In this document: piece by piece, positions 12,278 to 43,608 of the stretch
Position numbering within the stretch: position 1 is the stretch's first letter
Layout: each line of letters begins with the position of its first letter
Source of the DNA: a virus
IMG/VR virus record: IMGVR_UViG_3300028610_000639
Coordinates: 1-43,608 of that record
Strand: one strand, 5' to 3'
DNA length: 43,608 nucleotides
Notes under the pieces: generated by a model
Database searches by the model: none
Seen by the model: only the letters and a program-made list of their open reading frames with translations
Told to the model about the DNA's origin: nothing
Position numbers and translations under genes: made by a program

Positions 12278-13545
12278 CATTTGACCCGGGATATGTTTTT
12301 TTTGAAATGGTTAGGATATATAAAGAAAACTATTCCGTTAATAATAAGGTTGTAATTTGTAATGAAGGCACTACCCGAAGTATGAAAACCTGGGATTTCT
12401 TCCATTTTCTGTATATATATTATGATCATAATCGAAATAAAAACTTAGACTGTTATTGTCTACGCGAAACATTAAGTGATTGTAGGGATTTTACATTTAA
12501 GGAATTTAGAGACTGTTTTACTGAAATGGGTGTTTGGGATGATAATAAATGTACCACTTCACCAAAACCTAATTATAAACTTTTTGGTAATAATATATAC
12601 TTCAGGGGATTAGTTGATTCAAGCGAAGGTTACCCGTCGGATATATTATTTATAAATGAAGCTTTAGAAAATCAGAACAAAAGCAAAGTAGATGGTTTGC
12701 GAATGCGATGCCGTAAGCTTATTGTTTTTGATTGGAATCCAAAATATACTCAACATTGGTGTTTTGATATGGAAGGGCAGCCAAATACTTTCTTTACACA
12801 TTCAACGTATAAAAATAACCAGCACTTACAAAAATCAATAGTAAAGGAAATAGAAGGCTATTGCCCGTGGGATTTTAGAGATTTACAATTACCTAAAAAA
12901 GAAGATAGACGGCCCAATATAGAAAACTTAAAAAACAACACGGCTGATGAATATAGATGGCTGGTATATGGCGAAGGAGTAAGAGCAGCCCCAATTGGAT
13001 TAATTCATAAAAACGTTACGTATATCGAAAAGTTCCCTGATCTTGATTATTGGTATGGTATGGACTTTGGTTTTACAAACGATCCATCAACAATTGTTAA
13101 AACTACAATTGAAGGTAAAAAGATTTATTTTGAATTACATTGTTACGAACCAACTGAAACGCCCGATGTATTAGATGGATATATGAAAAAAAGAGGAATA
13201 GAAAAACACAAACAAATTACAGCGGATAGTTCTGATAAATATTCAAACGAACATGGTACTGTAGAAATGGTAAAGGATTTGCGCAATAAAGGGTGGAAAA
13301 TATCAAAAGTTAGTAAAACTAAAAATAATTTTTATTGGTTAACAAAACTAAACGAATATCATATTTATATTATTATTAATGATTTATCACATTTTGCCAA
13401 AAAAGAGCAACAAAATTATACTTGGCGTGAAATAAACGGCATTTCAATAAACCAGCCTATTGATAAGTGGGACCATTTTTGGAACGCTGCAAAATATGCG
13501 TTAATGGCATCATTACAAGATTACTCATTTAACTATCAGCAATGA
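12274..13545 (+). CDS. terL: Terminase large subunit
   Basis: 423 aa, the ATP-driven packaging motor and nuclease. The Walker A equivalent is EGTTRSMKT (residues 31-39), in which the usual glycine before the lysine is methionine. Walker B is ILFINE (124-129). The RNase H-like nuclease domain begins at YGMDFGFTNDPS with its first acidic residue, and ITADSSD supplies the second. Length and order fit the family. The start overlaps terS and the stop overlaps the ParB-like gene. Confidence 0.93.
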   Translation: MTFDPGYVFFEMVRIYKENYSVNNKVVICNEGTTRSMKTWDFFHFLYIYYDHNRNKNLDCYCLRETLSDCRDFTFKEFRDCFTEMGVWDDNKCTTSPKPNYKLFGNNIYFRGLVDSSEGYPSDILFINEALENQNKSKVDGLRMRCRKLIVFDWNPKYTQHWCFDMEGQPNTFFTHSTYKNNQHLQKSIVKEIEGYCPWDFRDLQLPKKEDRRPNIENLKNNTADEYRWLVYGEGVRAAPIGLIHKNVTYIEKFPDLDYWYGMDFGFTNDPSTIVKTTIEGKKIYFELHCYEPTETPDVLDGYMKKRGIEKHKQITADSSDKYSNEHGTVEMVKDLRNKGWKISKVSKTKNNFYWLTKLNEYHIYIIINDLSHFAKKEQQNYTWREINGISINQPIDKWDHFWNAAKYALMASLQDYSFNYQQ

Positions 13546-36173: not shown

Positions 36174-36191
36174 TTAAAATAAAATCTTAAC

Positions 36192-36283
36192 TTAGTGATA
36201 GTTGCTCTTTGAGCGCGAACACATACGCATAAGGTCGGAAAGCTATAGGCATATATATGAATAACCCTTTTAGCTATCGCTAA
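36192..36283 (+). ncRNA. Structured RNA candidate after the endolysin
   Basis: A closing helix TTAGTGATAG (36,192-36,201) with CTATCGCTAA (36,274-36,283) contains one G-U pair and can extend three more pairs inward. Inside are small hairpins GCTC-TTT-GAGC (36,204-36,214) and GCG...CGC (36,215-36,228), and a third arm AAGGT...ACCCTT. No protein frame covers it. The multibranch fold of about 92 nt suggests a stand-alone RNA or an mRNA leader element. No promoter of the usual type lies directly upstream. Confidence 0.55.
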
Positions 36284-36345
36284 TTTTAAATAACCAGTAA
36301 GCAAGGTTCTGTAAATCTTGCAAAATTATATAAATACATACATAT

Positions 36346-36615
36346 ATGTTTGCTTTAAGAAGAATTACATCAGAAGGAAATGAAAACAATACCTGTATAG
36401 GTAAATCGTACAATTATGTGCTAAAAATTGAGAACAAAGATGAGTATGAAAAAACACTTAAATGTTGGCTTTTAGGCTTAAAAAGGGATGACAATGACAT
36501 TTACGGATTTATTATTTCAAATGGTGGTCAAGACATTACACCGCTTTACAAAAATTCAATTTATTTTGTAATGATGAGCAATGGCCAAACCTTTGCTAAT
36601 GTAACACAAAGATAA
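36346..36615 (+). CDS. Hypothetical protein, 89 aa
   Basis: MFALRRITSEGNENNTCIGK continues as an alpha-beta domain (YNYVLKIENKDEYEKTLKCW; YGFIISNGGQDITPLYKNSI). It has no membrane spans or zinc motifs. The pattern resembles small hypothetical proteins of Bacteroidota phages. It is isolated between structured RNAs, with no overlapping partner. The start codon lies inside a TATGTTTG box, so that box is unlikely to be its promoter. Confidence 0.7.
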   Translation: MFALRRITSEGNENNTCIGKSYNYVLKIENKDEYEKTLKCWLLGLKRDDNDIYGFIISNGGQDITPLYKNSIYFVMMSNGQTFANVTQR

Positions 36616-36701
36616 TTTAGGAGCGTTAAAATCTATTCTGCTAGTTGACGTATTGCATAGATGCATTAATCCAAGTAAGCTGAAACAGGATCTTGCTAAT
36701 T

Positions 36702-36736
36702 CCTAACCATGCAGAGACAGCGCGAAGTCGGTTAGG
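36702..36736 (+). ncRNA. Bulged hairpin RNA element upstream of the tmRNA
   Basis: CCTAACC (36,702-36,708) pairs perfectly with GGTTAGG (36,730-36,736). A further GAC/GTC helix stacks on it across a seven-base bulge (ATGCAGA) and closes an AGCGCGAA loop. Bulge and loop could form a pseudoknot. The stretch from 36,616 to 36,770 contains no gene and is locally richer in G and C than its flanks. It may be a separate small RNA or the 3' end of the preceding message. Confidence 0.5.
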
Positions 36737-36772
36737 TTTGCTTTATGTATAATTAATCTAAATTAAACTACT

Positions 36773-36805
36773 TTGTAAATAGTATTGTTTTATTGACTAT
36801 ATTTG
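36773..36805 (+). promoter_or_regulatory. Promoter of the permuted tmRNA
   Basis: TTG (36,773-36,775), 22-base spacer, TATATTTG (36,798-36,805). A start six bases after the box is 36,811, exactly the first base of the segment that pairs with the coding half of the tmRNA. Confidence 0.8.
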
Positions 36806-36810
36806 CTATT

Positions 36811-36871
36811 GAAAGTTCATTGAAGTATTTTGTAGTTCGTTTGGACGTCGGATCGTACCCGACTAGCTCCA
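36811..36871 (+). ncRNA. ssrA: tmRNA acceptor piece (3' half)
   Basis: Contains the strands of both P2 helices, the conserved GGAC just before the T arm (as in E. coli), a perfect T stem GTCGG/CCGAC (36,847-36,851 and 36,859-36,863) with a 7-base loop ATCGTAC, the 3' acceptor strand TAGCTCC and discriminator A (36,871). CCA is not encoded (CGA follows), so it would be added after processing. The loop departs from the normal TTCRANY at positions 54 and 58 (A and T instead of T and A). Confidence 0.85.
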
Positions 36872-37167
36872 CGATTAAGAATAAGGGAGAAAAAGCAACA
36901 TTGTTTTTTACGGAAACCTTTAAAAGACCTACATTACTATTAGTATACTCTAATAGTTTCTGTAGCTAGGCGAAAGTAAAATGAAGAGTTTAGATACCGT
37001 GTGACAAGGATGGCTCATTGGGTCTATTTATGGAACATGTGTTATTGCTATCCGAATAACATAGCCCTTATTCTTAAACTTATTAGTAAAAAATTACTTT
37101 TATAAAATGAGGTGTAAAATGTCCTGAGTAATAAATGCACATTAAAGACATACAAAACTACTCACAT
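36872..37167 (+). other. Intervening spacer of the permuted tmRNA with its own fold
   Basis: About 296 nt joining the 3' end of the acceptor piece to the 5' end of the coding piece. A perfect 13-bp stem TTAAGAATAAGGG (36,875-36,887) with CCCTTATTCTTAA (37,065-37,077) closes a domain. Inside are three arms: CTACA..ACTATTAG / CTAATAGT..TGTAG (36,929-36,965); TAGAT-x-CC with GGGTCTA (about 36,991-37,027); and a 9-bp hairpin 37,038-37,046 with 37,055-37,063. Known spacers of permuted tmRNAs are usually much shorter. No protein frame or intron core was found in it. Confidence 0.75.
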
Positions 37168-37230
37168 GGGGCTAACTTGGTTTTGACAACGAATAAGTAT
37201 GATTTACGGAGAACTTTTAAATAAATAAAC

Positions 37231-37257
37231 GGAAACGTTCAAAAATTAGCTGCGTAA
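37231..37257 (+). other. tmRNA tag reading frame (GNVQKLAA, then stop)
   Basis: Codons GGA AAC GTT CAA AAA TTA GCT GCG TAA encode GNVQKLAA. With the alanine carried by the tmRNA the full tag is A-GNVQKLAA. It ends in LAA, the ClpXP degradation signal common to bacterial tags. The resume codon for glycine agrees with what is known of Bacteroidota tags. A second stop (TAG) follows one base after the TAA, in another frame. Confidence 0.82.
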
Positions 37258-37267
37258 GTAGCGACCC

Positions 37268-37300
37268 AAAGGAGTGAAGTTTAGTAGCTCCTTTGTTTTT
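37268..37300 (+). terminator. Terminator of the tmRNA transcript
   Basis: AAAGGAG (37,268-37,274) pairs with CTCCTTT (37,288-37,294) across a 13-base loop, followed by GTTTTTA. It ends four bases before the next ATG, so the next gene is reached by read-through. Confidence 0.78.
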
Positions 37301-37303
37301 ATT

Positions 37304-37678
37304 ATGAATGAAACTCAAACTCAAAAATATAACAATATTTCTAGTAACAAAACCATCCAAGTACACAAAGATTCTATTTTCGGCCTGGTTCAAGATACTG
37401 AGATTTGCGAAACCACTAGAAAAATACTACATCAAAACCAAAAATTAGATAGTCAGATTATAATAGAGTATCACTACCTAGCAGATTCACTGCATTATTT
37501 ACTCGAATTTAAGACAACAGGCGTTAATAGGCTATCAAATAAGCTCGTTTTACCCAAATTAAATGCGAATATACAACCGCCCCAAATAAAGTCCGTTAAA
37601 CAGGCTATTTTAAAACCTGAGTTAAAAGCTGTTCCAAAGAAAAAACGACGATTAAGAAACCTTTTTAATCGGAAATAA
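37304..37678 (+). CDS. Hypothetical basic-tailed protein, 124 aa
   Basis: The start at 37,304 (MNETQTQKYNNISSNKTIQV) is chosen because the in-frame GTG upstream lies in the terminator stem. The C-terminal third is basic (KPELKAVPKKKRRLRNLFNR), possibly nucleic-acid binding. It lies immediately after the tmRNA terminator. A functional link with the tmRNA is tempting but unsupported. Confidence 0.65.
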   Translation: MNETQTQKYNNISSNKTIQVHKDSIFGLVQDTEICETTRKILHQNQKLDSQIIIEYHYLADSLHYLLEFKTTGVNRLSNKLVLPKLNANIQPPQIKSVKQAILKPELKAVPKKKRRLRNLFNRK

Positions 37679-37687
37679 TAATTTATA

Positions 37688-37718
37688 TTGTTTCTAAGTT
37701 AGTTATTACATATATTTG
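37688..37718 (+). promoter_or_regulatory. Bacteroidota-type promoter
   Basis: TTG (37,688-37,690), 20-base spacer, TATATTTG (37,711-37,718). The start is predicted near 37,724, 19 bases before the next ATG. Confidence 0.83.
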
Positions 37719-37742: not shown

Positions 37743-38390
37743 ATGAATTATAAATTAGATGCAATGGCTGGTGATAACTTTACCGATGTAGCTGAAAAAG
37801 CCAAAGAAATTGCTACTGAAAAAAAAGTAACTGTAGAATTTGATTTTAATACTATTACATGTTTAGTTGATAGTAAAACAAAACTTGAATGGTTGCTTCG
37901 TGATTATCATAATGCGCACAGAATGGAGTGGAAAACTATAGGTACTGATTGTGTTGCTAAATATGATGCCAGAACAAAAGCGGAATTACATAAGAGAAAT
38001 GTAGCTGCTGAAATAGATGAAAAAGAGCGTGCATTATTTGCCGAAAAAGTTAAAGGCATTAACATTGAGTTGACAGACGAAAAGGGATGGAATGAAACAG
38101 TTGAGAAAAATTCAGATCCATATGGAAAAGCGGCCGTTGATTATGCAGAAGGATGGGCAAAATTAATGCAAGTTGAAATAACGAATGGTAAAACATTAAT
38201 TGAATGTGCTGAAAAAACTTCTCATGAACTTGGATTTTTAGGAATTACAGGATTTATGTATGGTTGTGTTGTTGGTATATTGTCACAGTGTTGGAAACAT
38301 GGTGAAGAATTAAGAAAGTGGCACAATAAGGATTATGGGCACGAAGGAGATGGAGTTGTAAATCCTGCTATTCTAACCGTATTAAAATAA
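37743..38390 (+). CDS. Hypothetical soluble protein, 215 aa
   Basis: Not recognised. The N-terminal 65 residues look like an alpha-beta module (KKVTVEFDFNTITCLVDSKT). The middle is charged and helical (LHKRNVAAEIDEKERALFAE). Near the C-terminus a glycine/cysteine-containing helix (GFLGITGFMYGCVVGILSQC) may be a buried helix rather than a membrane span. It has its own strong promoter and the AACTAAAA leader element. Function unknown. Confidence 0.8.
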   Translation: MNYKLDAMAGDNFTDVAEKAKEIATEKKVTVEFDFNTITCLVDSKTKLEWLLRDYHNAHRMEWKTIGTDCVAKYDARTKAELHKRNVAAEIDEKERALFAEKVKGINIELTDEKGWNETVEKNSDPYGKAAVDYAEGWAKLMQVEITNGKTLIECAEKTSHELGFLGITGFMYGCVVGILSQCWKHGEELRKWHNKDYGHEGDGVVNPAILTVLK

Positions 38391-43202: not shown

Positions 43203-43465
43203 TAGATGATATATTTCAAATAAAAGAAATAGATTACAGCCACATTGATTTATTAATACATATGTGTAATTTATGTAAATTTCCAGATAGAGAACACGAA
43301 CACATGTTGTCTAAAATAAACGAGATAGAGGTCGATTCTATTAATTCATTTGAAGATTTTATATCACTTTATTATATTTTAAAAGATTCATTACCAGAAC
43401 CAATACAGGCAGGTAGTAATTATTCAATGAAAGATATACACAACTTATTAAATAAACATTGCTAA
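43199..43465 (+). CDS. Hypothetical protein, 88 aa
   Basis: Starts at an ATGA overlap. Helical and acidic (HIDLLIHMCNLCKFPDREHE; INSFEDFISLYYILKDSLPE). It contains a CNLC pair, perhaps metal-binding. It runs to the left end of the terminal repeat. Function unknown. Confidence 0.7.
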   Translation: MIDDIFQIKEIDYSHIDLLIHMCNLCKFPDREHEHMLSKINEIEVDSINSFEDFISLYYILKDSLPEPIQAGSNYSMKDIHNLLNKHC

Positions 43466-43608
43466 TCATGAAAACAGAAACTCGATACTTACTATGCATA
43501 CTTTTATTTTTACTTGTATTAAGTGGATTATTAATTTGGGCTGCCTCATGACAACTGAAAAAGATAAAGATCATCCTAATTTAAGAAAACTAATTTAAAA
43601 TATGGAAA
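43465..43608. repeat. Direct terminal repeat, right copy (144 bp)
   Basis: Identical to bases 1-144. The start of the 224-aa gene reappears at its edge, cut off by the window end. It shows that the gene cluster runs on from 43,465 to base 138 in the circular genome. Confidence 0.97.
43468..43551 (+). CDS. 27-aa membrane peptide (duplicate of the left-end copy)
   Basis: Same gene as at the left end, appearing twice only because of the terminal repeat. It directly follows the 88-aa gene. Confidence 0.5.
   Translation: MKTETRYLLCILLFLLVLSGLLIWAAS

Follow-up and report, generated by a model that had tools for sequence, protein, structure and literature searches.

A predicted circularly permuted tmRNA gene in a probable Bacteroidota phage, with relatives in crAss-like phages

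Permuted tmRNA genes have been described for three bacterial clades and for mitochondria. The Rfam 15 family tmRNA_permuted (RF04321) covers the permuted tmRNAs of alphaproteobacteria, betaproteobacteria and cyanobacteria (PMC11915505); Bacteroidota and their phages are not among its three source clades. Permuted ssrA genes are also carried by phages, as in the OM43 phage Melnitz and a number of marine phages, and ARAGORN reports 53 two-piece tmRNAs in phage genomes, the marine or aquatic ones numbering 50 (PMC9004378). The statement in an initial annotation of the present DNA, that phage tmRNAs are known in one-piece form, is therefore incorrect. The tmRNAs of Melnitz and the marine phages are, however, of the alphaproteobacterial type, and the host clades concerned (alpha, cyano) use permuted genes themselves.

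The window analysed here is the whole of the IMG/VR virus record IMGVR_UViG_3300028610_000639, 43,608 nt in length. It contains a locus, detailed in Table 1, which is, judged by comparison with relatives, a genuine permuted tmRNA gene, in a lineage that merits describing but a member of the known kind. With RF04321 it shares the 3' half placed first, an intervening segment, a tagged 5' half, the acceptor stem, the T-arm and P2. It differs in scoring below the gathering threshold, in having no room for the PK1 pseudoknot, in its ATCGTAC T-loop and in a structured intervening segment of 296 nt. Compared to the one-piece ssrA of Bacteroidales (locus L033, with the tag ENNYALAA*, and contig C1 of genome G017), it has a similar tRNA-like domain, starting GGGGCTGAyyTGGTTTTGACAGC in the one-piece genes, but these keep the usual order and contain an extended middle part which is absent in this phage.

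Table 1. Parts of the predicted permuted tmRNA locus, numbered from the first nucleotide of the window.
Feature	Position	Strand	Remarks
Permuted tmRNA locus	36,806-37,303	+	order: 3' tRNA-like half, then 5' half
Bacteroidota-type promoter	36772-36805	+	-33 TTTG at 36772-36775, 22-nt spacer, -7 TATATTTG at 36798-36805; read from the sequence
Acceptor piece (3' half)	36806-36871	+	P2 3' strands, T-arm, 3' acceptor strand, discriminator A 36871; RF04321 alignment, top R1 match
Distal P2 helix, 3' strand GAAAGTTC	36811-36818	+	pairs with GAACTTTT at 37211-37218
P2a helix, 3' strand GTTCGTT	36835-36841	+	pairs with 37188-37194; covaries among relatives
T-arm	36847-36863	+	perfect stem GTCGG/CCGAC; loop ATCGTAC (A54/U58, not U54/A58)
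Acceptor stem, 3' strand TAGCTCC	36864-36870	+	U70 opposite G3
Intervening segment, 296 nt	36872-37167	+	between discriminator A and G1; removal expected
Folded domain within intervening segment	36875-37077	+	closing 13-bp repeat TTAAGAATAAGGG 36875-36887 / CCCTTATTCTTAA 37065-37077
Coding piece (5' half)	37168-37303	+	P2 5' strands, tag, H5 hairpin, terminator; RF04321, second-best R1 match
Acceptor stem, 5' strand GGGGCTA	37168-37174	+	inside coding piece
D-region TGGTTTTGAC	37178-37187	+	inside coding piece
P2a helix, 5' strand AACGAAT	37188-37194	+	fixed-register pairing test
Distal P2 helix, 5' strand GAACTTTT	37211-37218	+	
Tag reading frame	37231-37257	+	GGA-AAC-GTT-CAA-AAA-TTA-GCT-GCG-TAA = GNVQKLAA*; resume box TAAACGGAAA; ARAGORN at relaxed threshold
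H5-like hairpin GCTGC-GTAA-GTAGC	37249-37262	+	stop codon in loop; seen in fold
Intrinsic terminator CAAAGGAG...CTCCTTTG + T-run	37267-37303	+	stem seen in fold

The three helices claimed for the locus, correctly nested and without mismatch, were all found. The acceptor stem consists of 7 bp between the halves (GGGGCTA/TAGCTCC) with the alanine identity pair G3-U70, and the P2a helix pairs TTCGTT at 36836-36841 with AACGAA at 37188-37193, giving 7 bp when G36835-T37194 is counted. The tag frame follows the 5' half and ends in small hydrophobic residues before the stop. PK1, which is common in permuted tmRNAs without being strictly defining, is absent; its columns are deleted in the RF04321 alignment, and only about 10 nt lie between the distal P2 helix and the resume codon, which leaves it no room.

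A promoter and a terminator bracket the gene, as had also been proposed, the promoter being of the Bacteroidota type (TTTG-N22-TATATTTG) and not sigma-70. The exact 5' end of the acceptor piece is inferred; transcription would be expected to start near 36,806-36,810 and to end near 37,303. TAnnTTTG occurs 47 times on the + strand of this genome, 15 of them within the 5.8 kb that is intergenic, and a directly upstream promoter motif is present in three of the relatives described below, L035 (TATCTTTG), L021 (TATATTTG) and L030 (TAAATTTG). The same three have a similar stem and T-run after the coding piece. A terminator scanner did not call the CAAAGGAG/CTCCTTTG hairpin, the loop of which is too wide for it; the sigma-70 promoter at 36920 and the terminator at 37012 that scanners did call both fall within the intervening segment and were set aside. 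No Intron_gpI match (Rfam) was obtained in 36,600-37,400 at E values up to 10, and a group I intron was rejected as the cause of the split gene. For the intergenic stretches 36616-36775 and 36174-36345, folding was not clearly better than chance (z 0.67 and -1.63).

The first 144 bases of the record recur at its end (1-144 and 43465-43608), so it is probably a complete genome, although it is classed as linear. Its terminase and portal matches include phages of Cellulophaga, Flavobacterium, Polaribacter and Bacteroides, and a Shine-Dalgarno sequence precedes only 6 of the 64 ORFs. The closest terminase match is to a phage named for Rhodobacteraceae, and for this reason a Bacteroidota host is regarded as probable, not proven. 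Adjoining the tmRNA gene, at 37743-38387, is a gene for a protein with the Pfam Tad4 (type I Thoeris inhibitor) domain (E 8.7e-34), preceded by its own TATATTTG motif at 37711.

Covariance models and pattern scans agree on the order of the halves, 3' before 5' on the same strand. RF04321 aligns with 36815-37257 over model positions 1-213, with 24.3 bits and an E value of 9.6e-5 for this genome, the next-best place scoring 12.6 bits. The Rfam comparison suggested in the initial annotation thus gave a full-length match and the best in the genome, but one well under the gathering score of 47 bits; the long intervening segment, the changed T-loop and the missing PK1 columns are a plausible cause of the low score. 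ARAGORN missed the locus at its default settings. At a relaxed threshold it called a permuted tmRNA, with the tag GNVQKLAA* right and the 5' domain wrong. An architecture scan required a T-arm of 5 bp whose loop contains TCG and, further downstream, a perfectly paired half with the form Gnnnnnn..TGGnTTnGAC. On the two strands of the whole genome this locus was the sole match, and 60 first-order random genomes, scanned on one strand, had none. Model R1, for which six relatives were used and the sequence of this phage was left out, ranked the 3' half first among all places on both strands (36808-36939, 26 bits, E 0.0079), followed by the 5' half (37114-37243, 19.9 bits, E 0.16), in the right order and on the right strand. 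These E values are weak for each half when R1 is taken alone. A one-piece ssrA was looked for and found nowhere in this genome.

These searches bear directly on the notion that the pairing between the halves arose by chance or convergence, the true product being the structured RNA of about 200 nt in the middle. That domain does have by far the strongest fold, its minimum free energy being -56.3 against -37.6 for shuffled sequences (z -5.09; 0 of 200 shuffles as good). The random genomes contain no such locus, both halves are recovered with a model made from other phages, and the promoter and terminator are placed beyond the halves instead of flanking the middle domain, all of which makes chance pairing extremely improbable.

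Relatives were found in viral contigs and in one host assembly. Scanning IMG/VR with a pattern for the 5' half gave one contig (L018/L021) bearing a permuted tmRNA which ARAGORN called at its default settings, and a pattern fitting permuted genes gave two viral contigs (L030 and L031) and a contig of a Bacteroidales MAG (L035), all ARAGORN-positive. Their RF04321 scores lie above the cut-off (L035 74.3, L031 71.7, L021 68.1 and L030 57.3 bits), as does that of the crAss-like phage cr10_1 (49.6 bits). The permuted tmRNAs of L021, L030, L031 and L035 lie in four contigs that are probably from Bacteroidota phages, the host phylum of L021, L030 and L031 being assigned from promoter motifs only; the terminase of L031 is similar to terminases of T4-like phages from other phyla. 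L031 also carries, at 12718-12780, a Pistol ribozyme (58 bits).

The Bacteroidales MAG of L035, the one host genome examined, has a one-piece ssrA on another contig (150.9 bits). R1 found only the L035 contig among 396 Bacteroidota genomes, under strict filters and with no positive control on that set, and on this ground the permuted form looks phage-borne and not a host trait. Three other pattern matches from genomes appear to be ordinary host genes in one piece: L033 and L037, which ARAGORN calls, and L032, which is cut at the locus end. The Poribacteria matches L034 and L036 are not tmRNAs by ARAGORN. The gene was absent in two relatives of the Tad4-like protein and in six of a 343-aa protein, so it is sporadic among protein-based relatives of this phage. 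Relatives of the L018 helicase were likewise without it, and scanning viral contigs for terminase gave no match.

BLAST with the L021 gene led to the crAss-like phages cr125_1 and cr10_1, whose annotated 'SsrA' is permuted by ARAGORN. Further searches and fetched regions added cr50_1, cr60_1, cr114_1, cr115_1, cr52_1 and MT835863, again permuted by ARAGORN, and several more with inserts; altogether about ten crAss-like phage records hold permuted tmRNAs. In public annotation, those of cr125_1, cr10_1, cr50_1, cr60_1, cr114_1, cr115_1 and cr52_1 appear only as 'transfer-messenger RNA, SsrA'. The initial annotation had judged a permuted gene in a Bacteroidota phage to be undescribed. Such genes already stand in the records under that name, but we found no paper in the open literature remarking on them. 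The gene of this phage resembles the crAss-like ones in order, G3-U70, the P2a helix, the resume box and its Bacteroidota phage group. In contrast, their tags are mostly GN...YT/YS..A, as against GNVQKLAA here, and blastn detects no DNA similarity between them and this phage. RAGATH-9, RAGATH-7-assoc and RAGATH-20 RNAs, above the Rfam cut-offs, lie just upstream of crAss-like permuted tmRNAs (L038 789-957; L058 520-699; L066 87-208; L063 363-463).

Covariation was examined by swapping the 5' and 3' halves between sequences and counting native against permuted pairings. In fixed register, P2a formed 47 native pairs against 28 expected, a number reached in 2 of 5040 permutations. With 14 sequences there were 75 pairs against 42 expected, and only 6 of 200,000 permutations reached the observed value, a figure which overstates the independence of the data because there are close relatives among the 14. 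The covariation sought for the pairing was thus found in P2a. The distal P2 helix alone, which is the same in L035 (AGTTC/GAACT), was not significant by the standard of P2a, with 110 of 5040 permutations as good; an unconstrained duplex test was marginal (175 of 5040), and in cr52 P2a is poor in fixed register, with 2 pairs. G3-U70 is kept in all 14 sequences, through the acceptor variants GGGGCTA/TAGCTCC, GGGGCTG/CAGCTCC, GGGGCAT/ATGCTCC, GGGGGTG/CACCTCC and GGGGTTG/CAACTCC. The resume box TAAnnGnnAA, with an in-frame tag, is also common to all 14. Of CCA, 13 of them, this phage included, encode just the first C, whereas L030 encodes CCA. Taken with the relatives and the R1 model, the covariation leaves a permuted tmRNA gene in a Bacteroidota phage as the best reading of the locus.

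The T-loop and the intervening segment are further unusual features of the gene. The T-loop departs from the canonical TTCRANN: ATCGTAC keeps TCG, with U54 and A58 swapped. It is ordinary in 11 of the 14 sequences and the other three have the ATCGTA core. A canonical loop is usual but not strictly defining, and ATCGTAC is a variant within the permuted group which gives no ground for exclusion. The intervening segment measures 42-57 nt in L021, L030, L031 and L035 and 77-601 nt in crAss-like phages; its length here is due to the folded domain of about 203 nt inside it. This domain has no significant Rfam match, no ORF and no similar sequence among the fetched loci. It was considered as a decayed homing endonuclease or tRNA and rejected, since it lacks an ORF, does not resemble the cr113_1 endonuclease and contains no tRNA.

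Some of the crAss-like genes hold a tRNA, an HNH endonuclease or a group I intron, whereas this phage holds none of these. An HNH-type endonuclease gene lies on the opposite strand within the intervening segment of cr113_1 (L063, 710-1291), cr56_1 (L065, 237-818) and MT835588 (L058, about 728-1306), and in all three it is accompanied by the T-loop TATCGTAT. The ATCGTA T-loop was found only in copies carrying a large insert. In cr114_1 (L055, 770-842) a tRNA-His called by ARAGORN lies inside the intervening segment. Group I introns were observed in the T-loop of the permuted tmRNAs of cr6_1 (L066, NC_055894.1, 246-505), cr1_1 (L067, MT774380.1, 287-531) and cr4_1 (L061, 1-181), with RF00028 scores of 96.7 and 63 bits and, for the partial cr4_1 copy, 34, below the cut-off. 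The intron insert of cr1_1 and cr6_1 has a reverse-oriented reading frame, annotated as an endonuclease in cr6_1. The forms tabulated in PMC11915505 do not include a permuted gene with an intron.

It could be argued from the low RF04321 score, the swapped T-loop and the 296-nt intervening segment that this is a permuted tmRNA gene in decay, in which an element has inserted into the intervening segment, the T-loop has changed and trans-translation has been lost. The helices are, however, free of mismatch, and the tag frame, the stop hairpin, the promoter and the terminator are intact. Furthermore, cr113_1 and MT835588 have the same ATCGTA core and acceptor stem (GGGGCTA/TAGCTCC) as this phage together with an intact tag frame, and in cr56_1 the T-arm and the TAGCTCC strand are the same as here. 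We consider decay quite unlikely.

One tentative account, which we regard as possible but somewhat doubtful, is that Bacteroidota phages, the crAss-like ones and this one, keep a phage-maintained permuted tmRNA lineage separate from the alphaproteobacterial, betaproteobacterial and cyanobacterial ones, while their hosts have one-piece genes. The intervening segment would be a landing site, for a homing endonuclease, a tRNA or a folded RNA domain; the ATCGTA T-loop could guard against the endonuclease; and the domain of about 200 nt might be a so far undescribed RNA, either mobile or self-processing. Protection by the T-loop change against an HNH-type endonuclease of this sort is speculation.

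The locus is very probably a circularly permuted phage ssrA, and its product most likely a two-piece tmRNA acting with host SmpB in the rescue of stalled ribosomes. A single transcript of about 495 nt would run from promoter to terminator, and the acceptor stem would fold with the intervening segment as its loop. From established tmRNA biology, host RNase P would be expected to cut before G1 (37168), and the 3' end, after discriminator A36871, would be finished by host 3' nucleases and the CCA-adding enzyme. Two pieces would result, joined through the acceptor and P2 helices: the acceptor piece, approximately 66 nt long before CCA is added, and the coding piece, about 135 nt long at most. G3-U70 would direct charging with alanine, and during infection the RNA, together with host SmpB, would rescue stalled ribosomes and add the sequence A-GNVQKLAA, which is probably a degradation tag. 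With respect to the tmRNA of the host, it would act as a supplement or a competitor.

No smpB gene was found in this phage genome, which also fits a regulatory decoy, an RNA resembling tmRNA that would sequester SmpB or AlaRS of the host and inhibit host trans-translation instead of carrying it out. Mycobacteriophage DS6A has a tag-less tRNA-like domain, of a form that inhibits tmRNA (PMC11915505, PMC4131195). Unlike DS6A, this phage and its 13 relatives have a complete tag frame, a conserved resume box and a stop codon, and a decoy is in our view unlikely.

If the gene is a functional two-piece tmRNA, the benefit to the phage may be, as a reasonable guess, rescue on mRNAs that break in the course of infection or through the defences of the host. 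The present case shows that divergent permuted tmRNAs escape current detectors. Since the chromosomes of this phylum appear to carry the one-piece gene, a set borne by its phages raises the question of where the permutation originated, and a second question is what a phage gains from a rescue RNA of its own when its host already has one. The relatives sit in abundant gut phages.
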